IMG/VR virus record: IMGVR_UViG_3300010371_000012
Location: 1 to 47,158 of that record
Source: a virus
Direction: 5' to 3' (one strand)
Length of the DNA: 47,158 bases
Position 1 is the stretch's first letter. Each line of letters begins with the position of its first letter. The position numbers and the translations under genes are program-made. Below are positions 3,772-45,149 of this stretch, piece after piece. A model generated the notes under the pieces. That model made no database searches. It was not told the origin of the DNA and was given only the letters and a program-made list of their open reading frames with translations.

Positions 3772-4280
3772 GCCTCTTTCCAACCAACGACACGGAACGG
3801 AAGAACCTTCCCGTATTCGCCATGATAGCGCGGTACTTCCCCAAGGCTCTCCGCGAGGTGACGCGCGTCTGCGTGGCCAACAACGTGCGCTACAATCCCG
3901 AGCGTAAGCCGGCCGACATCAATTGGGCTCGCGGCAAGAGCAGAGACCAGCTCGGGAGCCTGTTCCGCCACATGCTGGAGTACGAGGTTGACGGGCTTGT
4001 ATTCGAGGAGCTACCGCCCGAAGTGCAGGCAGCCTGCGGCGAAGGCTTCGAGCGCGTCTACGTCCTGGCTGAGGCCGCGTGGCGAGCCCTGGCGGCCCTG
4101 GAGCTGTGTATCGAGGAGCAGGAGGCCAAGGTTCCAAGGGTTCCCATGGGAACACTGGCACCCGGTACGGCTTATCTGGCATGCTTGTTGTCTCAGAACC
4201 CGAACATAGCTTCTCCACAGACTGGTTGTGAGTGCCAGAACTGCTGGATAGCTCGCACAGACGGCGCAACGAGGATCTAG
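3768..4280 (+). CDS. dATP/dGTP diphosphohydrolase-like protein (DUF5664 type, 170 aa)
   Basis: I chose ATG 3768 because it overlaps the previous stop in an ATGA. The conserved part runs from RKNLPVF through [29 protein letters not shown] and [10 protein letters not shown] to [15 protein letters not shown]. This matches my recollection of the phage dGTP/dATP diphosphohydrolase N-terminal (DUF5664) family, an all-helical MazG-like fold. The predicted role is removing specific dNTPs. No purZ or dATP triphosphohydrolase is visible, so there is no support for a base-Z genome. After the domain comes a divergent tail that begins in one of the dispersed palindromes and ends with CECQNCW. Function is moderately sure. 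Confidence 0.75.
4140..4153. repeat. Dispersed palindrome copy 1 (GTTCC-CATG-GGAAC)
   Basis: A perfect 14-bp palindrome inside the diphosphohydrolase-like gene, followed by ACTGG like several other copies. It encodes V-P-M-G-T and lies just after the conserved domain. Confidence 0.8.
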
Positions 4281-4282
4281 TC

Positions 4283-4462
4283 ATGCCAATCGTCAGTGAA
4301 GCCCAGCGTAGGGCCATGTACGCAGCCGCCTCGGGCCGCTCGACGATTGGTATACCAAAGTCCGTAGGGCAGGACTTCGTGGCCGCTGGCCCAGCCTCGA
4401 AGAACCTGCCGGACCGTAAGAAATCCAACAAGCAGCTCGGCGACGAGCTAGCTGGCAAGTAA
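4283..4462 (+). CDS. Small phage protein, [12 protein letters not shown] family (59 aa)
   Basis: A 59-aa protein beginning [18 protein letters not shown], then [10 protein letters not shown] and a Lys-rich C-terminus. Small phage proteins with this layout are widespread but uncharacterised. ATG 4283 is preferred over an in-frame ATG at 4232 because the family pattern starts exactly there and the extra N-terminus overlaps the gene before. GAGGAT upstream can serve as ribosome binding site. Confidence 0.78.
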
Positions 4463-4482
4463 CACAACGATAGGAGCCCCAC

Positions 4483-4794
4483 ATGAGCACCAAAGCCAAA
4501 ACCCTGGATGATTTCATGCGCGAGAACGATAGAGACACCATCGTGGCCGGGAAGATCGACACGGCGCTGAAGGCGCTGTTGAAGGTCGGGCCGCAAGAGC
4601 ACGACAACGAGACCGACTTCGCCAAGCGCTGCGGTCTGCAACTCGCGGAGCTGACGAAGTACCGCGAGCGCTACCGCAAGCATGTCGCCTTCGTCCCCAA
4701 ACTGTTGGGGCGCAGGGCGCGGTTCGTGTGGTTTGCAGACTCCAAGGTCGTGCCGGCGAAGTTCCGCTGGACACCGGAGATGACCAATGAGTAA
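4483..4794 (+). CDS. Protein of unknown function sharing its N-terminus with the metallophosphoesterase (103 aa)
   Basis: The protein starts MSTKAKTLDDFMRENDRDTI. The pattern T-x-D-x-F-x-x-E-N-D-x-x-x-I is repeated at the start of the next gene (TVDSFLAENDPARII), which suggests a shared N-terminal module of about 25-35 residues or a partial duplication. The remaining part is charged and helical (FAKRCGLQLAELTKYRERYR), possibly HTH-like, ending in a small beta segment. It overlaps the metallophosphoesterase start by 8 nt. Partnership with that enzyme is inference. Confidence 0.78.
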   Translation: MSTKAKTLDDFMRENDRDTIVAGKIDTALKALLKVGPQEHDNETDFAKRCGLQLAELTKYRERYRKHVAFVPKLLGRRARFVWFADSKVVPAKFRWTPEMTNE

Positions 4795-5863
4795 GAAGAC
4801 AGTAGATTCATTCCTCGCCGAGAACGACCCGGCGCGGATCATCACCCAACTCCAGTCGGAAGTTGTGCGGCTGAAAGAAGCGGAAATCACCGCCGACGCC
4901 GTGCGCGACTACCTCGGCACGCTGAAGTTGGAAACCAACAAGCTGAACATTCCAGAGTGGGTTGTGAAGCCCTCGGCTTCCAGCAAAGCGCCGGGCGTAC
5001 CAAACCTGCTGCTCTCCGACCTGCATTGGGGCGAGCGCGTGTTCAAGGAGCAGGTAAACGGCGTCAACGAGTACAACCTCGCCATTGCTCGCCGCCGCCT
5101 GCGTCACGTCGTCGAGCGCGTGCCGTATCTTTTGCGCATACTCGATCCTGGCATGCGCTACCCTGGCATTGTTGTCAAGTTGGGCGGCGATATGGTTGGT
5201 GGCAACATCCACGAGGAGCTTGCCGCGACCAACGAGAAGGGCATAATGCCAACGTGGCTGGACCTGTTCAAACACCTCAAGTCGGCGCTCCTGTATCTGG
5301 CCGACGTGTTTGGCAACGTGTTCGTGCCGTGCGTCTCGGGCAACCACGACCGGGACACCAAGAAGACGTGGAACAAGGACCGCAACGCGACAAGCTTCGG
5401 CTGGCTGCTGTACCAGATGTTGGCCGATGCGCTCGCCGCCGACAAGCGGTTCTCGTTCTACATTCCTGACTCGGCCGACGCGCTGTACCGCGTCTACAAC
5501 ACGCGCATGCTGTTGACGCACGGCGACCAGTTCCCCGCCTCTGACTCTATCATCGGCCCTATCGGCAGCATCATGCGCGGCACGCAGAAGAAGCAGCAGC
5601 GCAACGCGGCGATAGACCAGAGCTTTGACGTGCTGGAGTGCGGGCACTGGCATCAGTACATGCGCATGTCGCATATCATCGTCAACAACTCTCTGAAGGG
5701 TTACGACGAGTACGCGGCGCAACACAATTTCCGCTGTACGGCGGCCAGTCAGGCGCTCTGGACGACGCACCCCGACATCGGAATCAATTGGGACATGGAG
5801 GTGTTCGCAGACGCTCCGACGAAGAAGCCAAAGGCCGCCTGGGCTTCGGTGCCGCAGGCGTGA
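4787..5863 (+). CDS. Calcineurin-like metallophosphoesterase (358 aa)
   Basis: All five metal-binding motifs of the calcineurin/Mre11 superfamily are present in order: SDLHWGE (Asp78, His80), GGDMVGG (Asp135), SGNHDRD (Asn186, His187), THGDQF (His245), and CGHWHQ (His287, His289). Residues 1-60 form a separate N-terminal helical module resembling the start of the preceding 103-aa protein. No SbcC/Rad50 partner is visible, so a classical SbcCD complex is unlikely. It may act as a DNA or nucleotide phosphodiesterase; substrate unknown. Confidence 0.92.
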   Translation: MSKKTVDSFLAENDPARIITQLQSEVVRLKEAEITADAVRDYLGTLKLETNKLNIPEWVVKPSASSKAPGVPNLLLSDLHWGERVFKEQVNGVNEYNLAIARRRLRHVVERVPYLLRILDPGMRYPGIVVKLGGDMVGGNIHEELAATNEKGIMPTWLDLFKHLKSALLYLADVFGNVFVPCVSGNHDRDTKKTWNKDRNATSFGWLLYQMLADALAADKRFSFYIPDSADALYRVYNTRMLLTHGDQFPASDSIIGPIGSIMRGTQKKQQRNAAIDQSFDVLECGHWHQYMRMSHIIVNNSLKGYDEYAAQHNFRCTAASQALWTTHPDIGINWDMEVFADAPTKKPKAAWASVPQA

Positions 5864-6048
5864 GCCGTAAGCTCTTGAAACTGCTTGAGCGCGCGGAGTC
5901 AAGTCCGCGCGCTCGACCGGCGCACCGTGTCAAGATTGCGGCAGCTCGGGAAAGGCTGGTAGCGTGCTCTCTCACCGATGAGGAGCGCCGCTATGATACC
6001 CGCCGCAATTCAACTACTTGGCCACACCTGGACCGTAGTTCTTCATGA
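5860..6048 (+). CDS. Possible small basic protein, GTG start (62 aa)
   Basis: An in-frame GTG at 5860 overlaps the metallophosphoesterase stop (GTGA), and the frame stays open to 6048, encoding VSRKLLKLLERAESS and an Arg-rich remainder. It fills the 130-nt gap between two genes but overlaps the next one by 56 nt, and the composition is arginine/serine-biased as in non-coding frames. Coupled translation is possible; I regard it as uncertain. Confidence 0.35.
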   Translation: MSRKLLKLLERAESSPRARPAHRVKIAAARERLVACSLTDEERRYDTRRNSTTWPHLDRSSS

Positions 6049-6436
6049 TGGCTACGCCATCGCGCCGGACGGCGACGAGTGCAAAGGGTATTGCGACTTC
6101 GAGCGGCAGGAGATACATCTTAACGCGACGATGCCAGAGTCGTTACTCTGGCATACGTTCTTCCACGAGTTGACTCACGCGGTGCTGTACTATATGGGCA
6201 CGAAGCTGTGCGCCAACGAGGCGTTCGTCGATATGGTAGCCGGTCTCTACGCCCAGGCGCTCAAGCCACTTCTAGGAAAAGGTCGCGCTCCTGCGCGCGT
6301 CGTACGGTCAGCCCCGGCAAAACCTTCCCGTCCTGATGGTTCCATTTCTCAAACTCCGCCGCAGCCCCCTCGAAGTCGCGAGCGTTCACGAGCCGGCACA
6401 GCGTCGAGTGACCTTCCGCTTCGGTCCCGACGTTGA
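5993..6436 (+). CDS. Zinc metalloprotease-like small phage protein, HELTH motif (147 aa)
   Basis: The HExxH zinc motif is HTFFHELTHAVLYYMG (His58, Glu59, His62), and a following NEAFVDMV (Glu76) could supply the third ligand. The core, residues about 1-95, resembles small SprT/ImmA-like phage proteins. ATG 5993 is preferred over ATG 5978 because GAGGAG lies 7-10 nt upstream of it. Residues beyond about 95 are antisense to the lysozyme gene and are Arg/Pro/Ser-rich, so the C-terminal third may be a non-functional extension of this convergent overlap. It is the last gene of the rightward operon. Confidence 0.8.
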   Translation: MIPAAIQLLGHTWTVVLHDGYAIAPDGDECKGYCDFERQEIHLNATMPESLLWHTFFHELTHAVLYYMGTKLCANEAFVDMVAGLYAQALKPLLGKGRAPARVVRSAPAKPSRPDGSISQTPPQPPRSRERSRAGTASSDLPLRSRR

Positions 6437-6701
6437 ACGTGAAGGCCACCAAGGCGTCGAATTGATTTTGGGTCAGCGGGACATCGGTTGAGCGCATAAC
6501 AGCCGCTGCGGCCTTGCCAGTGTCCGCAGCGAAGGCAGCTTCAGCCTGGGAGAGCGTCCAAACCGTGTCAGCCGTAATCTCCGGCCCGGTGTGGCCCCAG
6601 CCGATGGTGTACCACTTCTCGTTGGGCGTGGCCTTGTAAGCGCGCAGACGAAGCTGCTCGCGGCTCTTGATGAGAGCCGCGCCTTTCTGCCCGAGCTTCA
6701 C
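6261..6701 (-). CDS. Endolysin, GH24 (T4-type) lysozyme (146 aa)
   Basis: A muramidase-like enzyme that degrades peptidoglycan for lysis. Residues 15-37 (EQLRLRAYKA, then WYTIGWGHTG) are the GH24 active-site region: Glu15 is the catalytic acid and Thr32 the conserved threonine. The usual Asp/Cys between them is replaced in the AYKATPNEKW stretch, a variant type I recall from other phages. No signal or SAR segment is visible, so it should depend on the holin next to it. The start codon is GTG, overlapping the previous stop (GTGA). Confidence 0.9.
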   Translation of the reverse strand: MKLGQKGAALIKSREQLRLRAYKATPNEKWYTIGWGHTGPEITADTVWTLSQAEAAFAADTGKAAAAVMRSTDVPLTQNQFDALVAFTFNVGTEAEGHSTLCRLVNARDFEGAAAEFEKWNHQDGKVLPGLTVRRAQERDLFLEVA

Positions 6702-6841
6702 TTCCTATGCCTCAGCGCTTTGATACCCGCGTAGATGGACACGCAGAGCGCTATGACCTGCAACGTTGGCACCGCGTACGCTAGGAAGCTCCCTACGCAC
6801 GTCCCAATGCTCGTACACGCCCATTTTATGTCGGGACTCAC
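6698..6841 (-). CDS. Small membrane protein of the lysis cassette (47 aa)
   Basis: A GTG start at 6841 overlaps the holin stop (GTGA) and its stop overlaps the lysozyme GTG in the same way. The 47-aa product begins VSPDIKWACTS and has one long hydrophobic segment (VGSFLAYAVPTLQVIALCVS) ended by a basic KALRHRK tail. It may be a second holin, a pinholin-like or antiholin protein, or another lysis helper. It has no lipobox and is not a recognisable spanin. The coupling on both sides is the best evidence that it is real. Confidence 0.72.
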   Translation of the reverse strand: MSPDIKWACTSIGTCVGSFLAYAVPTLQVIALCVSIYAGIKALRHRK

Positions 6842-7260
6842 GACTTCGCCCCATTCAGCTTGCGGTCGGTGATGTGCAGGCCGGTGAGCCCGAGCATGCC
6901 GCCGAGAATTTCGAGCAAGGTCGTTGTGTCCATCGGCGGCACGGACTGCCCGTGAATGACCGCCACTATGACGTTGACGACGGGGATTAGCACGAAGGCG
7001 TTTGCTGCGCCCGCCGTGGCCACCCAACCAAGGCCGCCGCGCCAATGGTTGACCCGATCCACCGACGCGGCTTCCACCTTGTCGATGTCCGTCTGCGCAG
7101 CCTGTTGGGCCGCAGTGTCCTTCAATTGCTCCAGGGTGAGCTGAAGGTCCTTTGCGATTTGCGCCTTTTCGATTTCCGTCTTGTCGGGGAAAAAGCGGCC
7201 GACTACGTCGGCCACTTTCCCGATGACTTCCTCAGCGCCTGTTACAGGGTCGAGAGCCAT
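6838..7260 (-). CDS. Holin of the 3TM / GTA-holin type (140 aa)
   Basis: The layout matches the 3TM holin family also used by gene transfer agents: an amphipathic, charged N-terminus (residues 1-70, VVGRFFPDKTEIEKAQIAK), a WRGGLGWVATAGAANAFVLI membrane segment continuing into a second hydrophobic stretch to about residue 104, and a last segment LLEILGGMLGLTGLHITDRK. It should permeabilise the inner membrane so the leaderless lysozyme can reach the wall. It heads the holin / small membrane protein / lysozyme cassette at the end of the late operon. Confidence 0.88.
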   Translation of the reverse strand: MALDPVTGAEEVIGKVADVVGRFFPDKTEIEKAQIAKDLQLTLEQLKDTAAQQAAQTDIDKVEAASVDRVNHWRGGLGWVATAGAANAFVLIPVVNVIVAVIHGQSVPPMDTTTLLEILGGMLGLTGLHITDRKLNGAKS

Positions 7261-8610: not shown

Positions 8611-9912
8611 CTAAGCGAGCTTCCTGAACCAGTCCACTACGAGGGTTGGCGGCGAGCTGACGTTATTGGTGTAGCAGCCTAATCCTATAGCGTCTGGCGC
8701 TCCGCCCAGGAATGACGCGGCGGTTTCTGTGGATGCTTGGTTATATGTGCCCGGCAGCCCACTGAAGCTGAAATTAAACGTTAGGTTTGTGCCGTCATAA
8801 TCAATCTCAACGTACACAGGTATACTCACAACGGGAGATGACTGTGCGATTGGTCCTACCAATGATGACGTGTACGTGGTGGCAAATGCGCTAGATGCGA
8901 ATGTTGTAGTGTTTGTGAACCGTTGCCCAACTATACCCGCCGTTCCGCTGCCGCCGTTACCCACGCCGAAAATTATATACTTGCCAGCCTTTCCAACTAC
9001 TATGAATGTTTGATTGTTTACACCCGGCAATAGAGCTACCGTCTTTGCAGCGTACTTCCAAGTCCCGCCGCTTGGCACCTGCGTAACCATTCGCAACGTG
9101 GGGGAATTCTCAACCGGGTTGGTGAACGAGAGCGCCCCTAACGCCACGGTAGCGGTAGCCGTACCTTGGTTCACCCACGTCCAGAGCGCGAGGTTTATGG
9201 ACGAGCCCGATTCAAACTCGTCGTCTTGAGATGTAGGGATTGTTGGGTGCGTATCGGGAGTGACGTTTACACCGGTTATAGTTATGTTTGACACCGGCCC
9301 AGGGGGGCCTACGTCTCCCTGTTCGCCGTCATCTCCCGGCATCCAAATAATGGGACCCGCAGCACCGGTAGCGCCAGTAGGACCCATTGGCCCAGGCGGG
9401 CCCGGTTGCCCGTCCTCACTGGCATCAGCTTCGAGGAATACAGCCGGTCCCATCGGTCCTTGCGCGCCGGTTAACCCTTGGGGGCCAATAGAGCCGGGTA
9501 TTGCATTGAGCGCGTCTTCTGGATCATCAGGCAAAAAGAATACCGCCGGCCCGGTCGGTCCTTGCGATCCCGTGCTACCGTCTCGGCCCTGCTGTCCTGG
9601 GGGCCCGACTTCTCCATCCCCGCCGCCCTCGTCTCCAACACTCCAAGGTATGGGCGCTGTTAGCCCTATCGGCACAGGGCCAACCAGCACGCCGCCGCCA
9701 GATAAGCCTGGGCCAACAACCAACGATGCAGTACCACCGCCAGCTACTTGTGTTCCTTTTGACGTTGTTATGCCGAGCGCTGCTTTCAACTGCGCCAGAG
9801 TAACTATTGCGGAACCAAACTCCTGAATGGTAGTGCCGGCGTTTTGTTGGGTTGGTATTTGTATAACCTTACGCAGGCCACCCATGACCGGTACTTGTAC
9901 TTTCTTGCCCAT
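8611..9912 (-). CDS. Collagen-like tail fibre with C-terminal LamG-like domain (433 aa)
   Basis: The N-terminus (1-95) holds a short virion-anchor region with GGGTASLVVGPGLSGGG. Residues about 108-210 carry collagen Gly-X-Y runs (GPPGQQGRDG; GLTGAQGPMGP; GPPGPMGPTGATGAAGP) interrupted by three similar hydrophobic-acidic linkers (AVFFLPDDPED, AVFLEADASED, IIWMPGDDGEQ). The last 200 residues look like a concanavalin/LamG-like beta domain (FESGSSINLALWTW to the end). Collagen-like stalks in phage fibres trimerise and hold a receptor-binding head, so this is a good candidate for host recognition. The start overlaps the stop of the neighbouring gene by one base. Confidence 0.85.
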   Translation of the reverse strand: MGKKVQVPVMGGLRKVIQIPTQQNAGTTIQEFGSAIVTLAQLKAALGITTSKGTQVAGGGTASLVVGPGLSGGGVLVGPVPIGLTAPIPWSVGDEGGGDGEVGPPGQQGRDGSTGSQGPTGPAVFFLPDDPEDALNAIPGSIGPQGLTGAQGPMGPAVFLEADASEDGQPGPPGPMGPTGATGAAGPIIWMPGDDGEQGDVGPPGPVSNITITGVNVTPDTHPTIPTSQDDEFESGSSINLALWTWVNQGTATATVALGALSFTNPVENSPTLRMVTQVPSGGTWKYAAKTVALLPGVNNQTFIVVGKAGKYIIFGVGNGGSGTAGIVGQRFTNTTTFASSAFATTYTSSLVGPIAQSSPVVSIPVYVEIDYDGTNLTFNFSFSGLPGTYNQASTETAASFLGGAPDAIGLGCYTNNVSSPPTLVVDWFRKLA

Positions 9913-12257
9913 TATTGCGCCGCCAGTAGATCGCCCAGGCCGCCCTCGTCTTTCGGAGGATGCACCTCGAACACCGGCCGGTCGCCGTAGCTCACCAGTT
10001 CACCCGAGCCCTGTTTCTCGGCAGGGTTGCGCCGCACGTCGTAGCCGCGACGCTTCAACGCGGCGTACATGCGCTGCGCTGGCTCGGACACCCGCGTATC
10101 GCTGACCAACACCTTACCTTGGGCGTGCGTCCTGTCAGCCAAGTCTTGGTACATCTGCACGCCGAGTCCCTTGCCGCGCATTTCCTTCGGCAGCGCAGAC
10201 TCAACAATCTGCACCTCGTTGTCCTTCATCCCCGGCTGAGTCTTCAGGGTGCCGGCAGGCGATGGCTTGCCGGTGCCGCGAGGACCCTGGAATAGATCGC
10301 GCTGGCCGGGCTCGAACGCCTTGCCCTCGGGCGCGGAGAGCTTCACCTCTGGAGCGTCCGGTGCGGACAGCATGTCGCCCAGGCGCGATCCGCCAGCTAG
10401 CGGCGGCGTCCTAGCCAGTGTTCCTTCAGGAACACCCTGGCTCATGACCCCGGCAATGTCGTCGCCCAGCCCCCTTGGAGCCCCACCCTTAAACCACGAG
10501 TCGGAGTCGTCCAGCGAAAGGTCACCAGCCTCGTGCGCGGCGTTGCGGACGAACGGAACGCCATGCGCCTTCGGAGCCCCCATGGGAGCCAAGGACAGCC
10601 CCGCTGGCGGGCTCTGCTCGACTCCGTGCGATAGCACGTCCGCCAAAGAGAACGAGGCAGGCGGCCCACCGGGCGCAGGCGGCGAGCCCATCGGACCCGC
10701 CGTCATTCCTGGCGGCGGTTGCGGTGGGCCGCGCTCAATCGGCGCAAAGCGCTCGGGCGGGGTTCCGGGGAAGGCGCGCTGCGCCGCCTCGACGCCCGAG
10801 GCCGCCTCGCGATTTGCCTTAATCCGGCCGACAGCTCCGGTGACCGGCTTGAGCCACGTAGCCGGCTTCGTCAGGTCTACGCCATTGGCCACGTCCGACA
10901 GCGACTCCTGAAAGCGGTTGCCCATGCCGACCAGCTCGGGGTTCTCGGATGCGAACCGCCCGAGCATGCCGAGGCCGCCCGTGAGCAGGTTCGGGTTGCG
11001 CTGGAACATGCGGCCGAGCGCCGCCATGTCGATGTTGCCACCTTTAAGTGCCGCCTCGACGGTGTGATTCTTGGCCAGAGCTGTGCGCGCGGAGCGGAAC
11101 TGGTCAATGTCAACGTCGGCGTCCTTCGGCAAACTGCGCTCTATGTGGCCTTCCAACACGTTCGCCGCGTCGAGCTGGGCATCGCCCAGCTCTTGTGCGC
11201 CGGGGTCTATGGATGCTGAGTTCTTGTAACCTTTGGTACGCAACGCCTGGAGCCAGTCAACCTTCTGCCGGCCGGTCACACCCTGAGAGCCAAGTATGTT
11301 TTTGAGGTTGCCGCGCAACCCCTCGATGTTGGCAATTGAGCCCTGGCCAGAGACAGGTACACCAGAGCCACCGATGCCGTCGAGCTGCGCCAGCTCTGCT
11401 TCGTTCATCGGCCCATCTGGGGTAGCCGCAGCAACGCGGCCCATGACAGCGCCAGGGGCCTTGCGCGCCTCGGCCAACGCCTCGGGGCTCAGCGGTGTTC
11501 CCTTGGGAACACTGGCCTCTGCACCACCAATGGTGTTGCCGACTTGTTGGTGTGGTTTGAGCGGCGGCGTGCTGGGAGCCTTGAGCCCCACGTCGGCTGG
11601 CGTCGGCTCCTCGGGCATGTCGAAGCCGTTGCCGCTCGCCGCTTCACCCACACCGCGAGCCGCGTTAGCCACGTTTCCCACGGCACCGCGTACGGCACCG
11701 GGAATACCTTTGGCACCAGCAAGAGTGGCGATGTCGCCAGCAGCCGGGAGCGTTGCTTGCACAACAGCCTGGGTGCCGGAAGTTGGATCGTCGGTCATAT
11801 AATGGTTAGTTGCGCCCACAGCACGAGTCACCGCGTCACCGCCGCCGGCCGCGTCGATAGTCTGCGTCAGGCTGTCACCCAACCCCTGGCTCAACTCCTG
11901 GCCAGCCTGCCCGGTCGGCACGTGAAGCGAGCTTACCCAGCCAGGGTCCTTCGCGTTCGGGTCGCCGCTCAGCCGGTGATACAGGTCTGATACAGCATGC
12001 GCTATGCCGTGCGGAATGTTTCCAATGGCGGAGCCCGCCAGCTCCGCGCTACCTAGTATCTGTTTACCGAAAGACATGTCTTGCGGGTTCTCGGCTGGCG
12101 CAGCCGGCTTCGGCGAATATCCGATCTTCGAGTAGAACTGGTCCTGCGGCATGTCCGCATAGAACTTCTGGTGCAACGCCGACGCAAGCGCATCATCGCT
12201 CATGTCGTTGTACTGCGGGAACTTCGCCCGCACGTCCTGCATTGTGATGCCGGCCAT
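9912..12257 (-). CDS. Large internal virion (ejection) protein with C-terminal GNAT domain (781 aa)
   Basis: The product is a mosaic: an N-terminal helical part (MQDVRAKFPQYNDMSDDALA), a Gly/Ala-rich membrane-active-looking stretch (residues about 70-215), a helical middle with GLGMLGRFASENPELVGMG, a Pro-rich low-complexity region, and a C-terminal N-acetyltransferase-like domain (MRGKGLGVQMYQDLADR from 693, then SEPAQRMYAALKRRGYDVRR). The GNAT acetyl-CoA loop R-G-x-G-L-G is intact. It is most likely ejected into the cell with DNA, like T7 gp15/gp16. Copies of GLGDxL-like short motifs occur in the Pro-rich region and at the very end. It contains two of the dispersed palindromes. Confidence 0.78.
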   Translation of the reverse strand: MAGITMQDVRAKFPQYNDMSDDALASALHQKFYADMPQDQFYSKIGYSPKPAAPAENPQDMSFGKQILGSAELAGSAIGNIPHGIAHAVSDLYHRLSGDPNAKDPGWVSSLHVPTGQAGQELSQGLGDSLTQTIDAAGGGDAVTRAVGATNHYMTDDPTSGTQAVVQATLPAAGDIATLAGAKGIPGAVRGAVGNVANAARGVGEAASGNGFDMPEEPTPADVGLKAPSTPPLKPHQQVGNTIGGAEASVPKGTPLSPEALAEARKAPGAVMGRVAAATPDGPMNEAELAQLDGIGGSGVPVSGQGSIANIEGLRGNLKNILGSQGVTGRQKVDWLQALRTKGYKNSASIDPGAQELGDAQLDAANVLEGHIERSLPKDADVDIDQFRSARTALAKNHTVEAALKGGNIDMAALGRMFQRNPNLLTGGLGMLGRFASENPELVGMGNRFQESLSDVANGVDLTKPATWLKPVTGAVGRIKANREAASGVEAAQRAFPGTPPERFAPIERGPPQPPPGMTAGPMGSPPAPGGPPASFSLADVLSHGVEQSPPAGLSLAPMGAPKAHGVPFVRNAAHEAGDLSLDDSDSWFKGGAPRGLGDDIAGVMSQGVPEGTLARTPPLAGGSRLGDMLSAPDAPEVKLSAPEGKAFEPGQRDLFQGPRGTGKPSPAGTLKTQPGMKDNEVQIVESALPKEMRGKGLGVQMYQDLADRTHAQGKVLVSDTRVSEPAQRMYAALKRRGYDVRRNPAEKQGSGELVSYGDRPVFEVHPPKDEGGLGDLLAAQ
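10428..10445. repeat. Dispersed palindrome copy 2 (GTGTTCC-TTCA-GGAACAC)
   Basis: Seven-base arms with a 4-nt centre, inside the ejection-protein gene. On the minus strand it encodes V-P-E-G-T and reads GGAACACTGG at its edge, like copies 1 and 3. Confidence 0.8.
11495..11512. repeat. Dispersed palindrome copy 3 (GTGTTCCC-TT-GGGAACAC)
   Basis: Perfect eight-base arms around TT, inside the ejection-protein gene. It encodes V-P-K-G-T on the minus strand and is followed on the plus strand by TGGC. Confidence 0.85.
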
Positions 12258-25852: not shown

Positions 25853-28060
25853 TTATGTTGGTCCGCCGCCTTGTGGCGGCGATATTCCTGGGACGCCTGT
25901 CGCGGGCGGAGCCGGCTGGCTTCCCGGCTCCGGCGGAGCAGCGGGAACCTTTGGCACAGCCGCCTGATCGAGCGCCACAGCGGGAGATACTAGCGCAGCC
26001 GCAGCCTCCGGGGAAAGTTCGCCCTTCAGCGATACGCTGATGGTGGGCATTACAGGTGGCGGCTGGGTGCCCGCTCCCGGTGTGCCTGGAGCCGGAGCCT
26101 TCGGGATGAACCGGTCGGGGTCAGTCTCGTCGCCGAGGCGCTTCATGGTCTCTTTTATGAGTTCCGTGAGTACCTGAACTGTAGAGTCATCTCCATTGGC
26201 CAACGCTTGTCGGATTTCTACCAGGGTTTCCTTGATGAGCGGTAGCAATGTCGCCCATACCTGCTGGTCCGCTGGCGCTTTCGGCTTCCCGGTAGTGCCG
26301 GCTTGAATTCCAACTTCAGCCATCGTGAACAGGTCTTCAATTGACATGCCATGAGGCCAGAACGCCTTGACGCCGGCAATGCGCGCGGCTTCTTGGTTGG
26401 TAATGCACTGCAAGGACTGCTCCAACGTGTATTGTGCAACCTCCGTCAGAGTATCCTCCAAGTAATCACGGTCGCTGGACGTGCGAGCATTCGTGCCCTG
26501 TTGCTGTATTGAGGCTTCGGTGGCAGTGCTCGGGTTACCCGGTTTGTTGATAGCCGCGCTCAGAGCCTCTTGTACGCCGGAGATACGCTCCATGTCGCTG
26601 AGGATGTAGGTGGGGTCATACAAACGAGGGTCAATGCCCTGTACGGGCTTTGCAGCGAATGCGGATTCGAGGGGAATGCTCGGATCGCTCAGTTTCAGAG
26701 CGGTAAACTCCTGAGTCTTGCTCCCTTCGATCTTTCGAGCCTCCGTATCATCCAACATGGTCGCATTGAAGAACACGCCGGGGATGGAGCGCTCGCGCGT
26801 CAGCCTAAAGTTGGATCGCGTGGCGCTGTACTCGTCTTGTAGCTTGTAAAGCCTCCATGACAAGGATTGCGCGTGCCGCTGGCCGTCAACTTCGTAGAAC
26901 GCAGTGTAGAAATACGGGTAGAACCGGCTCGTCGGGTACGGCGGCATGAACGGTTCCTTCGGCCAAGCGTGTACACCCTCAATCAGAGTGCGGATGTGCT
27001 TGTCGCGTCTGTCCCATATCTCCACAACGTGTACGAACCCTTCCTGCTCGGGGCCGGATTGTGACGGCGAGAATGTCTGTGCGCTCTCGGCCGTCATTGT
27101 GCCCTGCGGCAGCGCGTTGGAATTCTCACGTGTCGTGAGTTCCTTAGGCTGCTGCTGGTAATACTTGGTGGCTGTCTTCAGCTCGTCGGGGTGCAGGCGC
27201 GGGAAACGCTCCAGTGCATCCTCCTCGCTTATGAATGACTCGTCGCCAATCCAACCTGCGTCGAGGTAGTCTTCAATAGACTCGATGTCGGTCGATACTT
27301 GAATGCGCTCGGTGCGAACGAAATCGATTGCCAATATCTTATTGACGGCCAGCTCAAGTTTGCCTTCCAACTCAGCGATGAGAGCTTCCTTCTCCTCGCG
27401 CTCGCCCTCCAACTCCTCCTGGCTCTTGCCATCCGGGTCTTCCATGAGGGCAATCTGAGCCTTGACGCGCCGGTAGGTCTCCTGCGCGTCGTTGAGCGCC
27501 TTATCCGTTTCTGGCTGTGGCTGCTTTTCACTCAGCAGGTTTACCTTGAGCCAACCCTCGCCCGTCGAAAGAATGCTGCGCACCTTCTTACGGGCCGCTC
27601 GCTTCAGCTTGCCCTTCTTCCATAGGTGCGAAATGATGATTTGTGCAGTGAGCGCGAACGCCTCCATCTGCTCAGTGCCGCTCTCATCAACCTGCGGCGA
27701 CTTCTTGACACTAACATCCGGGTCTCGCGCGTAGAGCAGCGCCACGAGGATGTCGATGAACGCTCCAATCAGGTTGGTTGTGACCGCCCAAGACAAGTCG
27801 CTAGTGCCGGCAGCGTACTGCCGGTCAATAGCGACCTGCTTGCGGAAGTTCTCATCAAACTTTCGGCCACGCTCCCAATCCTTCCACAGTTTGCGGACAC
27901 GAGCCTCCTCCTTGGGGTCGCGCTCTGGCTTCTCGCCGCGTTGCGACTCCGCGTCTCCACCCTGCATCCCGCCATCAGCGTTCTGGCGTGGGTCCGATGT
28001 TATGCCGGCGTAGCCGCCCGAAGGACCGCCGCTTGCGCCATCTGTAGAAGTGTCAGCCAT
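25853..28060 (-). CDS. Portal protein (735 aa)
   Basis: A large protein between terminase and scaffold genes, the standard portal place. Its N-terminal region has VTTNLIGAFIDILVALLYAR, then DVSVKKSP, a helical coiled region (residues about 180-240, EELEGEREEKEALIAELEGK), a central core (FYTAFYEVDGQRHAQSLSWR; EYSATRSNFRLTRERSIPGV), a GVQEALSAAINKPGNPSTAT segment typical of portal stems, and a Pro-rich disordered C-terminus. It forms the dodecameric ring through which DNA is packaged and to which the tail adaptor binds. Confidence 0.85.
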   Translation of the reverse strand: MADTSTDGASGGPSGGYAGITSDPRQNADGGMQGGDAESQRGEKPERDPKEEARVRKLWKDWERGRKFDENFRKQVAIDRQYAAGTSDLSWAVTTNLIGAFIDILVALLYARDPDVSVKKSPQVDESGTEQMEAFALTAQIIISHLWKKGKLKRAARKKVRSILSTGEGWLKVNLLSEKQPQPETDKALNDAQETYRRVKAQIALMEDPDGKSQEELEGEREEKEALIAELEGKLELAVNKILAIDFVRTERIQVSTDIESIEDYLDAGWIGDESFISEEDALERFPRLHPDELKTATKYYQQQPKELTTRENSNALPQGTMTAESAQTFSPSQSGPEQEGFVHVVEIWDRRDKHIRTLIEGVHAWPKEPFMPPYPTSRFYPYFYTAFYEVDGQRHAQSLSWRLYKLQDEYSATRSNFRLTRERSIPGVFFNATMLDDTEARKIEGSKTQEFTALKLSDPSIPLESAFAAKPVQGIDPRLYDPTYILSDMERISGVQEALSAAINKPGNPSTATEASIQQQGTNARTSSDRDYLEDTLTEVAQYTLEQSLQCITNQEAARIAGVKAFWPHGMSIEDLFTMAEVGIQAGTTGKPKAPADQQVWATLLPLIKETLVEIRQALANGDDSTVQVLTELIKETMKRLGDETDPDRFIPKAPAPGTPGAGTQPPPVMPTISVSLKGELSPEAAAALVSPAVALDQAAVPKVPAAPPEPGSQPAPPATGVPGISPPQGGGPT

Positions 28061-28087: not shown

Positions 28088-28429
28088 CTATGACGCTGGG
28101 TTCTCGCTGCCGGCAGGAGGCTCCTTCGAAGTAGCCGCTACCATCTCCGCTTTGTACGCGACCAGAGCTGGACTGTCCAATTCAGCGTACCCAACCGGAG
28201 GATAGCCATTCGGGTCGTAGCCAGCTCTAAGCCACATTTCCAGGGTCGGACCGTCCGTGCGCAGGGTCTGTTTTAGCGGTTCCTGCCGTCCGCGCTGCCG
28301 GGTAAAGCTCAATACCTGTGTTTCCCGCGCATACGGCGATACTGGCGGGGTTTCCGCTTTCGGAGCTGCTGTTGGAACCTTGTCGCCGTCTGTGGCAATT
28401 GGCGCAAAGCCGGGTATGTTGCGGATCAT
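28088..28429 (-). CDS. Protein of unknown function between portal and terminase (113 aa)
   Basis: A short Pro-rich protein with a conserved-looking centre (GPTLEMWLRAGYDPNGYPPV) and an acidic C-terminus. The start overlaps the terminase-nuclease stop by one base. It may be a small head or packaging accessory, but no family is recognised. Confidence 0.7.
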   Translation of the reverse strand: MIRNIPGFAPIATDGDKVPTAAPKAETPPVSPYARETQVLSFTRQRGRQEPLKQTLRTDGPTLEMWLRAGYDPNGYPPVGYAELDSPALVAYKAEMVAATSKEPPAGSENPAS

Positions 28430-29070: not shown

Positions 29071-30164
29071 ACCGGCGCAAGCCTAGGGTCGTAAAACTTG
29101 AACATGTCACGTTGGAAATGGATACCTGTGAACGGCGCTGGGCGCTGTTGGTACAGGGCAGCCCACGTGCGCTGCGCTCTCGGGTTGTCGCGCCACGTGT
29201 TCCAGTGTTCCCGTGGGAACCACTCAGGCCAGAGAAACCCCCCAACCGGTCGGCCCAGCGGATCGTCCTCGCGCTCGGCCTCGGCGGGGATGCACAAAAC
29301 CTCCCACTTCTGCCCGTCGCGGCAGTGAATCAAGCCTGACTCACCCTCGTACTGCTGCGGGAGGATCGAGCCGGCAAGGTCGTCCTCATGCCATCGTGTT
29401 TGAATTATGATACACCACATATGTGGCTTTGCACGGGTCATAACCGTGTCTATGTATTCGTTGTATATCTTCTCGCGTATTGTTGGTGAGTCAGCTTCCT
29501 CGCGGTTGCGCACCGGGTCGTCGATGATTACGCCATCAGCGCGGTTTCCAGTGATCCCAGCCAGGAGACCGGCTGACATCAAAGCAGAACCATTCGTTAA
29601 AGACCAGTCGTCCACTGCGCGTTGGTCGTCCAGCAACAAGGGGCGTGACGGCCACAGCGACGACCACATATGGTTCTTGCAAATTGTCCGTACTTTGCGG
29701 CTCTGTTTGGCGGCGATTGACGAACCATAGGACGCAAGAATTATCTGTTGGTTCTTATTCCTTCCCAACGCCCAGCTCGTACCTATAACTGACGCGTACG
29801 TGCTCTTTGCTGACCCAGGCGGGGCGAATATCATCAGCCGGCCGCGTGATGTTTGAATGCATTTTTGAATCGCTAGCATCATCACGTAGTGGTGAAGTGC
29901 AACGCGCTCCTCGATTGGGGTGTATAGGATGTTGTTTCTGTCTATGCGGTTGACGATCTTGCCAGCGCCCTTGACCACCGTGCCGTCCGCCAGCTCGACA
30001 TCCTCAGCCTCGTTCAGCGGATCGTAGAATTCCTCGTCGTTGTCGGCCTCGCCGGGCACCGGCACGCCTGGGATTTCAATGGCCTGAGAATACTCGGCCA
30101 GTGAAGTACGGGCGCGCTGGCGTCGAAGTAGCTCGGCCGCCGCGAATTGGGCTGCGGCGCTCAT
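29067..30164 (-). CDS. terL: Terminase large subunit, ATPase domain (365 aa)
   Basis: The motor half of the large terminase. It has Walker A FAPPGSAKST (residues 113-122), Walker B GVIIDDP (Asp215-Asp216) and coupling motif IIQTRWHEDD (about 253-262), followed by WPEWFPREHW near the end, the typical end of the ATPase domain. The protein stops at residue 365, before the nuclease domain, which is encoded by the overlapping downstream gene. Both products together should translocate DNA through the portal. Confidence 0.92.
   Translation of the reverse strand: MSAAAQFAAAELLRRQRARTSLAEYSQAIEIPGVPVPGEADNDEEFYDPLNEAEDVELADGTVVKGAGKIVNRIDRNNILYTPIEERVALHHYVMMLAIQKCIQTSRGRLMIFAPPGSAKSTYASVIGTSWALGRNKNQQIILASYGSSIAAKQSRKVRTICKNHMWSSLWPSRPLLLDDQRAVDDWSLTNGSALMSAGLLAGITGNRADGVIIDDPVRNREEADSPTIREKIYNEYIDTVMTRAKPHMWCIIIQTRWHEDDLAGSILPQQYEGESGLIHCRDGQKWEVLCIPAEAEREDDPLGRPVGGFLWPEWFPREHWNTWRDNPRAQRTWAALYQQRPAPFTGIHFQRDMFKFYDPRLAPV
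29207..29220. repeat. Dispersed palindrome copy 4 (GTTCC-CGTG-GGAAC)
   Basis: A perfect 14-bp palindrome in the terminase ATPase gene. Read on the minus strand with flanks it is the same 19 bases (GGTTCCCACGGGAACACTG) as copy 7 at 41575-41593. Here it is read in another frame (W-F-P-R-E-H). Confidence 0.8.
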
Positions 30165-31296: not shown

Positions 31297-31312
31297 TGTT
31301 CCCAAGGGAACA
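31297..31312. repeat. Dispersed palindrome copy 5 (TGTTCC-CAAG-GGAACA)
   Basis: Seven-base arms in the divergent control region, not in a gene, so its conservation here cannot be explained by codon usage. Confidence 0.8.
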
Positions 31313-37147: not shown

Positions 37148-37855
37148 ATGTCTATTGAAACGAACCAGTACATCGCGACAGCCACGGACGTAGAGAAGCT
37201 GGCGCACACCATTCTGGAGGCTGACATTGCCTCCAGCGGTGCGCGCGGCACGTTCCTCAAGGCGGTTGTGGGTACTACCCAGGCGGAGTTGGGTTCACCG
37301 CCACGCATGCGCAACGTTAAGAGCGAAAAGCTAAACGAGGAAACCACGAAAGCGCATCTCGCGGCGTTCGAGGCGGTTGCCAAGCGCTTCACCGAGGCCG
37401 TCAACAAGGTGGCTCAGGCCATGGAGCCGAAACCCGATGCCGACATGATGCGCTCGCGCACAGCGTTCGCGCGAAGCTCTCTCAGCACGGTACGCGGTTA
37501 TATACGCGCCGGCTACGACATTCGCACCTTGGCAGCGCACAAGGTGACCAAGGCGGCGTTAGCCACGCCGAAGGCAAAACGGAAGTTTAGCGTTGACGCG
37601 CTCAAGAAACGCGCTATCAGCATGGCTGAACAGCTCACCAACATAACCAAAAACCTCCAGGCGGCCAACAGTGTCGAGGCGCGCGAGACTATCAACATTA
37701 TAATGGCGCAACTAGCCAAGGCCGCAGGACTGACAGCTCACACATCCAAAGACGTGGAGAAGTCAATCGAAGCTGGCGAGGCGTTCCACACCAAGACTGG
37801 AGTGTTCTTCCCGATCAACCTCGCTGCCATACGTGAGCAGCGAGCCGCCGCGTGA
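37148..37855 (+). CDS. Helical protein of unknown function, first gene of the second early operon (235 aa)
   Basis: The start has AGGAG 9 nt upstream and stands behind the best promoter in the window, so it is probably strongly expressed. The protein is nearly all helix, rich in Ala and Lys (FEAVAKRFTEAVNKVAQAME; KKRAISMAEQLTNITKNLQA) with no Cys or Trp. The middle (SSLSTVRGYIRAGYDIRTLA) might be HTH-like. It could be a DNA-associated or regulatory protein; no family is recognised. Confidence 0.75.
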   Translation: MSIETNQYIATATDVEKLAHTILEADIASSGARGTFLKAVVGTTQAELGSPPRMRNVKSEKLNEETTKAHLAAFEAVAKRFTEAVNKVAQAMEPKPDADMMRSRTAFARSSLSTVRGYIRAGYDIRTLAAHKVTKAALATPKAKRKFSVDALKKRAISMAEQLTNITKNLQAANSVEARETINIIMAQLAKAAGLTAHTSKDVEKSIEAGEAFHTKTGVFFPINLAAIREQRAAA

Positions 37856-38073: not shown

Positions 38074-38100
38074 GTCGAGGTTCCCGCTGGGAACCTCGAC
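38074..38100 (+). terminator. Terminator hairpin built on the dispersed palindrome (copy 6, N5 centre)
   Basis: A perfect 12-bp stem (GTCGAGGTTCCC / GGGAACCTCGAC) with a 3-nt loop GCT, followed by TTGCTTTCC. The core GTTCC-CGCTG-GGAAC is the dispersed palindrome with one extra base in the centre. It separates the 235-aa/71-aa pair from the HTH and replication genes. Confidence 0.72.
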
Positions 38101-38156: not shown

Positions 38157-38414
38157 ATGGCTCGCCCCAATACTGCCCTACGCGACTGGCTGACCGTGGC
38201 CACCGCAGACCAAGCCCGCCAGCTAGCCAAGGCGGCTAAGACATCCGTCCCACAGCTAAGGCACATAGCCAGCGGCCGGCGTAAAGCCAGCGCCGCGCTC
38301 GCGCAGCGCCTCGTGCACGCCTCCCAACAATTCAACCTAGTCATGCGGCTCGACCAACGCGAGCTGTGCGAGGCATGCGGTAAGTGTCCGTATGCTGGCT
38401 TAGTGGCCAAGTAA
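38157..38414 (+). CDS. Small HTH regulator, YdaS/Cro-like (85 aa)
   Basis: ATG 38157 has CAGGAG 6 nt upstream. The segment ADQARQLAKAAKTSVPQLRH, then IASGRRKASAALAQRLVHAS is a helix-turn-helix of the YdaS/Cro type: L-A-K...S-x-x-x-L-x-x-I-A-S-G-R-R-x-x-S. The C-terminus adds ELCEACGKCPYAG, with three Cys (C-x2-C-x2-C) that may bind metal. It lies at the head of the replication operon and is the only clear DNA-binding regulator seen, so it is the first candidate to bind the dispersed palindrome or the YGGGACA repeats. Confidence 0.8.
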   Translation: MARPNTALRDWLTVATADQARQLAKAAKTSVPQLRHIASGRRKASAALAQRLVHASQQFNLVMRLDQRELCEACGKCPYAGLVAK

Positions 38415-41575: not shown

Positions 41576-41589
41576 GTTCCCACGGGAAC
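41576..41589. repeat. Dispersed palindrome copy 7 (GTTCC-CACG-GGAAC)
   Basis: Intergenic, 35 nt before the next start codon. With flanks it is the same 19 bases (GGTTCCCACGGGAACACTG) as copy 4 in the terminase gene, on the opposite strand. Confidence 0.85.
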
Positions 41590-42055: not shown

Positions 42056-42748
42056 ATGCACACTGAAACAGAGGCTATGAAGCGCTACATGACCACCCAA
42101 CCGCTATGGGACACGCAGTGCCTGTACGCGCAGCACCGGTACAGAAGCTACAAGGCAGAGCGCGGCTCGATTGCCGAGTACGACAAGATGCGGACCGACA
42201 CGGCCGAGTTCATACAGGCGTTGCGCCGCCAGCTTTCCGTGCTCGGCTACAACCGATTCTACTTGCGCGTGGAACAACACTGTCGGGCGCATCGTCCGTT
42301 CAATGACAAGCCCTACCGTGACTGGCTCGGTATTCTCCAGGCAGTCTGGAGCCGAGCGCTGGCTGGCGAGCTGCCGGCGACCCTGAAAGAGTACACCGCT
42401 GGCGGTGTGCAACATTGCGACGCTCAGAAACTACAGGCTGTTGCCCAGGAGACCACCGTGAAGACGAAGACAAAAGCAGTGAAGCCGTCGAAGGCTGTCA
42501 AAGTGAAGAAGCCGACACACAACATCGTCGGCGTACGCTTCGTGCATGGCCACAACGTCCACAAGGTGTACAGCTACACCGTTCCCAAGAAGGTGAAGTT
42601 GCACCTCGGCGAGGAAATCGTGGTGCCGACCAACCCCGGCGATTTCGAGCACCACGCCGTGGCTGTCGTGGTTGCCTTGAACCACACTCCCGAGTATTTC
42701 GGCGAGCTGAAGCAGGTCTACGGTCGCGTTAACGTGGTTAAGGGGTAA
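42056..42748 (+). CDS. Two-domain protein of unknown function with C-terminal beta-barrel (230 aa)
   Basis: ATG 42056 has AGGAG 9 nt upstream and is preferred to ATG 42014. The N-terminal helical domain (about 1-125) is followed by a Lys-rich linker (KTKTKAVKPSKAVKVKKP) and a small beta domain: IVGVRFVHGHNVHKVYSYTV, P-K-K-V-K-L, then LGEEIVVPTNPGDFEHHAVA. The last part resembles small phage domains with a K-x-Y-x-Y-x-V-P...G-(D/E)-x-V-V-V-P-T pattern. Function unknown. Confidence 0.7.
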   Translation: MHTETEAMKRYMTTQPLWDTQCLYAQHRYRSYKAERGSIAEYDKMRTDTAEFIQALRRQLSVLGYNRFYLRVEQHCRAHRPFNDKPYRDWLGILQAVWSRALAGELPATLKEYTAGGVQHCDAQKLQAVAQETTVKTKTKAVKPSKAVKVKKPTHNIVGVRFVHGHNVHKVYSYTVPKKVKLHLGEEIVVPTNPGDFEHHAVAVVVALNHTPEYFGELKQVYGRVNVVKG

Positions 42749-42751
42749 GCC

Positions 42752-44140
42752 ATGGCGCACTCCTTCTGGTCACCCTCGAAGTCGCACATGTGGATGCACT
42801 GCCACGGCGCGATGGCCCAGCCCGAGAACCAAGTACCGGGCGGCACGTCAGACTTTGCAGACGACGGCACAGCGTCACACACTCTCGCGGCCTGGGCGTT
42901 GCAGAACTACAAGGACGCTGGTGACTATCCCGACCTGACTATAAAGGTGGGCCAGAAGGAGTGGGAAGTTGACTCGGAGAGAGTTGACTTCGTGCAGCAG
43001 TACGTTGATGACGTGCGCCGTCGCGCTATGGGCGGCGTGCTGTTCATCGAGCACAGGGTTGACCTAGGCGACTACCTGGGCGAAGGGCCGTGCTGGAAGT
43101 GCCTAGACCACAGCACGGAGCCTGACCCAACATGCGACGTGTGCTCGGGTTCGGGCATCGCGCCGCAAGGTGGAACGTCCGACGCTGTTATACTCGTGGA
43201 AATCCCCGACGAGCCCGGCTGTTACATGCTGATAGCCGCCGACTTGAAGTACGGCATGGGCGAGAAGGTGTGGGCCGGTTACTTCCCGGCTCCCGGCGCT
43301 GATAAGCGCAAAATCAACACGCAGTGCGGCAACTACCTGCTGGGCGCGTGGAAGAAGGCCAAGGAGCTGGGCTACAAGGTCACCAAGTTCGTTGCGGTCA
43401 TATGCCAACCCCGGCTCGACCACATCGACGAATTCGAGATTACAGCCGAGGAGCTTGAGACGTTCGCCGACGAAGTGCGGCTAGCCATCGCTCGCGGCCA
43501 GGAAGCTATGACGCTGGGCGTCGATGATCCCAAGATGGAGGAGTTCCTGTACTCCGACGAGAAAGTGTGCCGTTGGTGTAACGCCAGACTGACGTGCAAA
43601 GCCTTCAATCGGCGCGTGGCTGAGGAAGTCAAGACGGAGTTCGACGAGGAGACAGGCGCTCCAATCGGATTCGAGGAGCCGCGCACCCTAGAAGCGCTTT
43701 CCAAGGCGTATGCTGCGCTACCGTTGGTCATGCAATGGGTTAAGGTAGTCAACAAAGCGCTGTGGGAGAATGTTCCCAAGGGAACCGTGATAGGTCCAGA
43801 CGGCAAGCCGCTCAAGCTCGTCTCCGGCAAGGCCGGTAAGCGCATGTGGGACCCAACGCAGAAAGACGAGGTTGAAGGGCTCATGGTTGGCGCTGTCGGC
43901 GCAGCCGCGTATCTGCCACAACAGACAGTAACAGCGCCGCAGTTCGAAACGCTGTTGAAGGCGCGCACGAAGCTCAAAGGCAAGAAGTTCCAAGAGCATT
44001 GGGACCAACACTGGAAGAAGTACATCACCAACGCGAAGCCCTCGTTGTCTATCGCGTTGGGTTCTGACCCTCGGCCGGCTGCTGGCAAAGCCGACGCCTC
44101 CGAGTTTGACGACGAAATTTCAACAGAGGATCAACCATGA
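42752..44140 (+). CDS. DUF2800 nuclease, Cas4/RecB-like PD-(D/E)xK protein (462 aa)
   Basis: The start MAHSFWSPSKSHMWMHCHGA is the DUF2800 signature (S-x-S...W-x-x-C). The nuclease core shows GTSDAV (Asp144) and IAADLKYGMG (Asp164-x-Lys166), and the C-terminal cluster KVCRWCNARLTCKAF matches the Cas4-like Fe-S cysteines. Unusually, residues 114-131 contain C-x2-C-x10-C-x2-C, a zinc-knuckle-like insertion next to the active-site core. DUF2800, Enc34-type SSB and polymerase genes regularly occur together in phages and probably make a recombination/replication module. Confidence 0.9.
   Translation: MAHSFWSPSKSHMWMHCHGAMAQPENQVPGGTSDFADDGTASHTLAAWALQNYKDAGDYPDLTIKVGQKEWEVDSERVDFVQQYVDDVRRRAMGGVLFIEHRVDLGDYLGEGPCWKCLDHSTEPDPTCDVCSGSGIAPQGGTSDAVILVEIPDEPGCYMLIAADLKYGMGEKVWAGYFPAPGADKRKINTQCGNYLLGAWKKAKELGYKVTKFVAVICQPRLDHIDEFEITAEELETFADEVRLAIARGQEAMTLGVDDPKMEEFLYSDEKVCRWCNARLTCKAFNRRVAEEVKTEFDEETGAPIGFEEPRTLEALSKAYAALPLVMQWVKVVNKALWENVPKGTVIGPDGKPLKLVSGKAGKRMWDPTQKDEVEGLMVGAVGAAAYLPQQTVTAPQFETLLKARTKLKGKKFQEHWDQHWKKYITNAKPSLSIALGSDPRPAAGKADASEFDDEISTEDQP
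43772..43785. repeat. Dispersed palindrome copy 8 (GTTCC-CAAG-GGAAC)
   Basis: A perfect 14-bp palindrome inside the DUF2800 gene, encoding V-P-K-G-T like copy 3. Confidence 0.8.
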
Positions 44141-44331
44141 GCAAGGTAGTCATTTTCAGAGAGACTCCCGGCTCGCATGAGGAGGAATACCTTGCCCGTG
44201 CGAGCAAGACCGAGTTTGTCTCGGTCGAGAACCCTGGCGAGAGCAACCTCGACTTCGAGACGCGCGCAGAGGCGTACGAGTTCGCGAAGTCGTTTACCAG
44301 CCTCGAACACTGGCGTGTAGGAGTGCGCTGA
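44137..44331 (+). CDS. Small protein of unknown function (64 aa)
   Basis: Compact alpha/beta sequence (SKVVIFRETPGSHEEEYLAR; DFETRAEAYEFAKSF). Start overlaps the nuclease stop (ATGA), and the end overlaps the next start (TGATG). Lying between nuclease and SSB genes, it could be a small partner of either. No family recognised. Confidence 0.68.
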   Translation: MSKVVIFRETPGSHEEEYLARASKTEFVSVENPGESNLDFETRAEAYEFAKSFTSLEHWRVGVR

Positions 44332-44495
44332 TGGCCCTTCCGAAACAGAAGCAGCCGCGTGAGCGCCGGGCTCGCGATGAGAAGCCAGCATTCGACCCGT
44401 ACTGGACACGTCGCAAAGTTGACACGGAGTCTGAATACATTCAGGCTGCGTGCTGCGAGCCGAAAGGGTTCTACCGAGGCGCGCGAATCCGCTAA
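44331..44495 (+). CDS. Tiny basic protein (54 aa)
   Basis: ATG 44331 shares one base with the previous stop (TGATG). The product is strongly basic at the start (MALPKQKQPRERRARDEKPA) and ends KGFYRGARIR, with two adjacent Cys. It ends with TAA 28 nt before the SSB start. Coupling supports it; function unknown. Confidence 0.6.
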   Translation: MALPKQKQPRERRARDEKPAFDPYWTRRKVDTESEYIQAACCEPKGFYRGARIR

Positions 44496-44523
44496 CAGTA
44501 ACCGCAACACAGGAACGACGACC

Positions 44524-45060
44524 ATGAAGTTTAAACTCAGAGACGCACGACTGGCATTCCCCAACTTGTTCACGCCGTATAAGGAGTCTTTCGGCGGCCG
44601 GTTTATAATCCCGCCCGACCACCCGCAGGTCACCGAATTCAAGAACGTCATGAAGGCCGCCGCCAAGGAGAAGTGGCCTGACAAGTGGCAGACCATCTAC
44701 GCCGCGCTGGATAAGCAGGACAAGCTGGCGCTGCACGATGGAGCCACCAAGGCTGAGTACGAAGGCTTCGAGGGCAACCTGTTCGTCGCGGCCAACTCGA
44801 AGGTGCGTCCAACCATCCTCGACCAAATGCGCAACGAGCTGTCACAGGCGGACGGCAAGCCGTACTCCGGCTGCTACGTCGTCGCCCTGCTGGAGATATG
44901 GGCTCAGGACCACAAGGAGCACGGCAAGCGCATCAACGCCAACCTCCGGGGCGTACAGTTCCTCCGCGACGGCGACGCCTTCAATGGCGGCGGCAAGGCG
45001 GCGGACGCTGACGAGTTCGACGACATCAGCGACGAAGCTTCAGACCCACTTCTGAGCTGA
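44524..45060 (+). CDS. Enc34-type ssDNA-binding protein (DUF2815, 178 aa)
   Basis: The start MKFKLRDARLAFPNLFTPYK, then GGRFIIPPDHPQVTEFKN, and the centre GFEGNLFVAANSKVRP followed by SGCYVVALLEIWAQD are hallmarks of DUF2815, an OB-fold ssDNA-binding family (Enc34). The last 20 residues are acidic (ADEFDDISDEASDPLLS), as in SSBs that use their tail to recruit partners. ATG 44524 is set by the family start. It should protect ssDNA and organise the polymerase and nucleases encoded around it. Confidence 0.92.
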   Translation: MKFKLRDARLAFPNLFTPYKESFGGRFIIPPDHPQVTEFKNVMKAAAKEKWPDKWQTIYAALDKQDKLALHDGATKAEYEGFEGNLFVAANSKVRPTILDQMRNELSQADGKPYSGCYVVALLEIWAQDHKEHGKRINANLRGVQFLRDGDAFNGGGKAADADEFDDISDEASDPLLS

Positions 45061-45129
45061 TCGAAGGCAACCCGCGCGACGACGAAAACGCCTGTCTCTC
45101 CTCTCTACTCGATTGGAGACGTGTAGCGC

Positions 45130-45149
45130 GGTGTTCCCGCAGGAACACC
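45130..45149. repeat. Dispersed palindrome copy 9 (GGTGTTCC-CGCA-GGAACACC)
   Basis: Eight-base arms in the intergenic space 22 nt before the next start codon. Confidence 0.85.

Follow-up and report, generated by a model that had tools for sequence, protein, structure and literature searches.

The stretch of viral DNA analysed here, which we call the window, is the 47,158-base virus record IMGVR_UViG_3300010371_000012. It carries eight exact copies of the palindrome GTTCCNNNNGGAAC, five within genes and three in intergenic regions (Table 1). A related stem with a 5-nucleotide (nt) centre lies in a terminator-like element, where an earlier note on this DNA had placed it. The stem follows a gene (37148-37855) for a predicted DNA-binding protein of 235 amino acids (aa), and the occurrence of this protein family among phage genomes tracks that of the palindrome. 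Other genomes are designated by G numbers.

Table 1. Palindromes and associated features of the window, with corresponding sites in related genomes
Feature	Sequence	Position	Strand	Context	Relatives
Palindrome	GTTCCCATGGGAAC	4140..4153		Genic, V-P-M-G-T frame	Orthologous copies in G024 and G025
Palindrome	GTTCCTTCAGGAAC	10420..10433		Late gene; position-6 C-G pair replaced by T-A	
Palindrome	GTTCCCTTGGGAAC	11497..11510		Same late gene as the 10420 copy	Kept in G038
Palindrome	GTTCCCGTGGGAAC	29207..29220		Terminase large subunit gene, W-F-P-R-E-H-W	
Palindrome	GTTCCCAAGGGAAC	31298..31311		Intergenic, between two divergent gene blocks	G001, G019 and G023 have aligned sites; G003 and G004 have a similar one
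Palindrome	GTTCCCACGGGAAC	41576..41589		Intergenic	One in the matching intergenic region of G023 and G024
Palindrome	GTTCCCAAGGGAAC	43772..43785		RecB-like exonuclease gene, V-P-K-G-T	Absent here in G024, whose exonuclease gene carries one at another place
Palindrome	GTTCCCGCAGGAAC	45133..45146		Intergenic, downstream of single-stranded-DNA-annealing protein gene	One downstream of the same gene in G023 and G024
Terminator-like stem	GTCGAGGTTCCCGCTGGGAACCTCGAC	38074..38100		GTTCC/GGAAC arms, 5-nt centre; follows the 37148-37855 gene by about 220 bp	Matching stem has an exact site in G023 and a one-mismatch site in G024
Candidate binding protein gene		37148..37855	+	235 aa, isoelectric point (pI) 9.9, all-helical model, possible helix-turn-helix	

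The number of copies was far above chance, as the earlier note had claimed. Dinucleotide shuffles of the window (n = 100) gave a mean of 0.02 copies of GTTCC-N4-GGAAC and a maximum of 1, against the 8 observed. Synonymous-codon shuffles, in which all proteins and each gene's codon usage stay unchanged, gave a mean of 0.30 copies and a maximum of 2 (n = 124). The note had set such shuffles as a possible refutation of its view that coding is not the cause; instead they ruled out coding constraint. Six of the eight copies contained the longer core GTTCCC-NN-GGGAAC, and ACTG flanked five, both in agreement with the note. Four of the five genic copies read V-P-x-G-T and the terminase copy reads F-P-R-E. 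Its position for the second copy (10430-10443) was 10 off.

The palindrome is all-or-none in its exactness. The window contained one copy with a single mismatch against 1.64 expected, and thus no enrichment. When seven motif-rich genomes were pooled, 45 exact and 8 one-mismatch copies were found, with about 10.6 of the latter expected. A degenerate regulator site would usually be accompanied by one-mismatch copies in excess, and the lack of such an excess points to stringent recognition.

Searches with the terminase, DNA polymerase and capsid placed the window in a family of phages of about 46-48 kb. Its close relatives bore the motif (6 copies in 20.6 kb of G023, 5 in 18.7 kb of G024, 3 in 24 kb of G022), and several short contigs of this group had one or two palindromes each. 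About 15 complete or nearly complete relatives, most with ~80% capsid identity, had between zero and two. Projection of sites between relatives showed those at 4140, 11497, 29207 and 31298 to be conserved. In the terminase gene many relatives had a similar stretch of protein, and the exact palindrome was confined to the motif-bearing clade and G008. Within the exonuclease gene, V-P-K-G-T of the window corresponded to I-P-S-G-R in G024, and V-P-T-G-T of G024 corresponded to A-P-I-G-F in the window, neither with an indel. As these differences are substitutions without indels, sites arise and vanish by substitution. Such turnover in place disfavours a mobile hairpin and contradicts the suggestion in the earlier note of one resembling repetitive extragenic palindromic (REP) elements. 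Copies of REP/REPIN elements arise by insertion; here, empty orthologous coding sites differ by substitution.

One conserved palindrome (G023 7923, G024 9770) differed between these two genomes in its centre, AC in one and GT in the other. The swap comprised two adjacent changes within DNA that was otherwise 98% identical, as an inversion of the palindrome would produce. We also considered GCGCG-N12-CGCGC as an alternative palindrome of the motif-poor relatives. Its matches proved to be 18-bp tandem repeats (GCGCGGGTGTCTGGCGAC and variants) at the ends of G029 and G043, in G026 (27204-27390) and in G042 (2414-2920), which probably encode a short amino-acid repeat.

A second motif-rich lineage was found by scanning viral contigs for TGTTCCCNNGGGAACA, which matched several contigs of 53-54 kb more than once. 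Whole-record counts of the palindrome were 8 in G076, 7 in G083, 6 in G069, 5 in G105, 3 in G073 and 1 each in G091 and G087. The capsid protein of these phages is unrelated to that of the window, and nucleotide similarity to the window is slight. Most sites took the form T-GTTCCC-RC-GGGAAC-A. Four of the five in G105 were instead GTTCCT-NN-AGGAAC, with T-A in place of C-G at position 6 on both arms. By crude gene calls, 27 of 29 sites lay within open reading frames (ORFs). Sites in the second-lineage genomes tended towards a more regular spacing than random placement would give (P 0.06 to 0.17 each), a weak trend that the window did not share. Four of these genomes (G083, G105, G069, G073) also contained a different palindrome that is dispersed, TGACG-N4-CGTCA, many copies of which have a promoter-like setting (for example, G083 24535 and G105 2901). 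It is probably an operator of this lineage. In G083 and G105 one copy immediately precedes the gene encoding the homologue of the 235-aa protein. Separately, a UvrD-like helicase (G076_45489-47066, with homologues in G083, G069 and G105) was restricted, within the second lineage, to motif-rich members.

The 235-aa protein links the two lineages. Homologues were common to the window, G023, G024, G076, G083 and G069, with that of G105 recovered by profile, and were not found in motif-poor relatives of either lineage, G064 excepted. Among 1,723 ORFs drawn from six motif-rich genomes, this family alone was found in every one of the seven motif-rich genomes and missing from all 16 motif-poor ones. 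G064 carries a homologue but lacks sites and is outside those 16. Further homologues, in G065 and in G089, whose 19.8 kb include one site, came from profile searches of fetched records. Across the 26 genomes with a length of 40 kb or more, among them G064, at least five sites were present in 5 of 6 genomes with the gene and in 0 of 20 without it. The exact probability of this split is 6/65780 by our own arithmetic, with the reservation that genomes within one lineage are not independent. In G073, which is without the gene, one site of G076 had decayed.

The earlier note had listed repressor-type sites among possible roles and pointed to an 85-aa helix-turn-helix protein (38157-38414) as a binding partner to assay. 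Our data support dispersed protein-binding sites in form. The partner it named is rejected, because at least six relatives in which the palindrome occurs once or not at all have homologues of the 85-aa protein; the second motif-rich lineage yielded no homologue of it. It is the 37148-37855 family that tracks the motif.

Members of this family are basic (pI 9.0 to 10.3) and otherwise undescribed. Searches of Pfam and PHROGs returned no family match beyond chance (for Pfam, none significant for eight members), and a sequence search of the PDB gave no match to the 235-aa protein. No relative was found among cultured phages and plasmids, nor in 84,980 prokaryote genomes screened with short peptide patterns, by which divergent copies would be missed. 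Two AlphaFold models were almost entirely helical, with mean predicted local distance difference test (pLDDT) scores of 75.9 and 81.7; in the second, pLDDT exceeded 90 over most of residues 1-120. No solved structure matched either of these moderate-confidence models in Foldseek at E<=0.001. By our own reading of the second model, the adjacent predicted helices 85-91 and 93-107 could form a helix-turn-helix.

The divergent homologue in G065 is accompanied by a different palindrome. This genome has no GTTCC palindromes and exactly three copies of AGTGCC-NN-GGCACT (8613, 20970 and 28109), which share the 6-2-6 layout. None of 150 shuffles gave any comparable palindrome family. The copy at 28109 lies about 220 bp downstream of the homologue gene. 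At least one copy is just upstream of a gene start, so the G065 sites might be operators. In an alignment of the putative recognition helix AR(S/T)xxSxxR, every homologue associated with GTTCC sites, and that of G064 as well, kept the second serine, which was arginine in G065. A repeated leader, CAATCACTGACCAAYGAGCAGGAT, also occurs in G065 just upstream of start codons (18800, 19498, 21002). In G064, nine copies of TGTCTAAA in both orientations fall within 0.5 kb (9506-9962) and resemble a control region. We set these aside as an alternative to the dispersed palindrome, as they are confined to that cluster and do not form palindromes spread through the genome.

We consider it reasonably likely that the phage-encoded protein of 37148-37855 recognises the palindromes as exact sites dispersed through the genome. 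We infer binding, dimerisation and a downstream function for this protein: a dimer would contact both arms of (T)GTTCCC-NN-GGGAAC(A) at eight places in the window. Occupied sites might then bridge and condense the phage DNA, or block polymerases or nucleases at many points. The sites, mostly genic, are distributed among early as well as late genes on either strand, and those of the second lineage are distinct from the promoter-like TGACG-N4-CGTCA. With both properties, a role on the scale of the genome seems likelier than promoter control. A broader and more tentative possibility is a phage genome-marking system, in which a helical family of new fold and a cognate 6-2-6 palindrome, placed every few kb and mostly within genes, would organise or protect the replicating genome in two lineages. 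Protein and site would have diversified together (GTTCCC, GTTCCT, AGTGCC).

Several points weigh against the pairing of protein and palindrome. G064 has a homologue and neither GTTCC sites nor any other repeated palindrome that we could find. Conversely, G073, G093 and G008 have three matches each and no detectable homologue. G023 and G024 are near-identical and represent one lineage event. The second lineage was ascertained through the motif, so that its motif content, though not its gene content, is subject to ascertainment. Within that lineage the UvrD-like helicase co-occurs with the motif equally well; no homologue of it was found in the window lineage. Lastly, the 235-aa protein matched no DNA-binding family in sequence or fold.

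The main rival, which we think unlikely, is stoperator-like silencing, in which the same or another phage repressor blocks transcription at the dispersed sites to keep a dormant state. The dispersal of the sites among early as well as late genes, on either strand, would suit it, and precedents exist in cluster A mycobacteriophages (PMC9283540) and SPbeta (PMC10516654). However, these sites are symmetric and mostly genic (5 of 8 in the window, 27 of 29 in the second lineage), unlike the asymmetric, oriented and intergenic stoperators of L5. No tyrosine integrase was detected in the nine records searched, and the second lineage possesses a separate palindrome, TGACG-N4-CGTCA, with many promoter-like copies. 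We give a still lower chance to a host protein, present in the hosts of both lineages, for which the sites are targets and the phage gene incidental. That an exact motif is common to two distantly related lineages, and that a few genomes retain sites without the gene, would be consistent with this; yet the relatives sharing most structural genes are without the motif, and the 37148-37855 family tracks it in both lineages.

The remaining alternatives are improbable. Chi-like marks controlling a phage helicase-nuclease would draw on the RecB-like exonuclease found in both lineages and on the UvrD-like helicase seen, in the second, only in motif-rich members. But the window lineage has no detected homologue of that helicase, the exonuclease is also present in relatives without sites, and Chi works with polarity, for which a palindrome is needless. 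Slightly less probable is an RNA hairpin acting in processing or translational control. GUUCC-NNNN-GGAAC is foldable and the extra copy lies in a terminator-like stem, whereas one-mismatch variants, which would include G-U pairs, are not enriched, and the RC/GY centres and T/A flanks preferred by the second lineage are those expected of duplex DNA. We ascribe the slimmest chance to a mobile hairpin or a crossover site for site-specific recombination. The AC/GT exchange that distinguishes G023 from G024 at a single, otherwise conserved site is the sole positive support for the recombination or processing sites suggested in the earlier note. Against it, sites of relatives differ by substitution with no indels (APIGF versus VPTGT; IPSGR versus VPKGT), and no tyrosine recombinase was found, serine recombinases not having been searched.

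As for the window itself, its final 38 bases (47121-47158) repeat its first 38 (1-38), and G023 and G024 read across the junction. The genome is therefore probably circularly closed, with its DNA polymerase gene split by the contig ends.

A few temperate phages are known to have dispersed sites in their genomes together with a protein dedicated to them. The sites described here are palindromic and mostly genic, in phages without a detected tyrosine integrase or ParAB partition gene, and our literature search found nothing describing the motif. If the pairing is true, it gives a lead to the function of an unannotated protein family and a natural series of proteins and sites for studying how DNA specificity changes. 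More generally, a raw motif can indicate its own reader through comparative genomics.

The closest precedents are the L5 stoperators, SPBRE/MrpR and MatP/matS, none of which agreed with the palindromes in all of the defining features tested. Stoperators of L5, a cluster A mycobacteriophage system, are asymmetric, monomer-bound 13-mers, oriented with transcription and located in promoters and short intergenic gaps (PMC9283540). The likeness lies in a short site present in many copies per genome and recognised there by one phage protein, as proposed here for 37148-37855. The sites differ in being perfect or near-perfect palindromes that lie mostly within ORFs, and the candidate protein is unrelated to known repressors. 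No match to the tyrosine integrase domain PF00589 was found in nine records searched with positive controls, a result that does not exclude serine integrases or plasmid prophages. The SPbeta element SPBRE is likewise short, repeated and dispersed in a phage genome, and is bound by an unusual phage protein, a binding that we propose for our candidate. SPBRE is intergenic, and its reader MrpR has a tyrosine-recombinase fold (PMC10516654). Neither that fold, at the Foldseek threshold given above for moderate-confidence models, nor PF00589 was detected here.

ParB sites offer a partial resemblance. The parS sequence, TGTTTCACGTGAAACA, is a 16-bp palindrome with TGTT...AACA ends, as are Noc sites, and TGTTCCCGCGGGAACA agrees with parS at 10 of 16 positions. 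In the nine records, however, neither the ParB N-terminal (CTPase) domain PF02195 (10 of 14 control genomes positive) nor the ParA-type ATPase PF13614 (all controls positive) was matched. With PF00589 also not found, ParABS and tyrosine-integrase lysogeny have no support.

No member of the candidate family is a recognisable MatP homologue, as none of the eight examined had a significant Pfam match; MatP belongs to another family. The arrangement is nonetheless similar. In the chromosomes of enterobacteria, a 13-14 bp site (matS) is repeated over long DNA and bound by a dedicated protein that organises it (PMC3330122). The palindromes are likewise 13-14 bp sites repeated along DNA with one dedicated, here candidate, protein, but they recur every few kb in a phage genome of 47-54 kb, which such a protein may organise.

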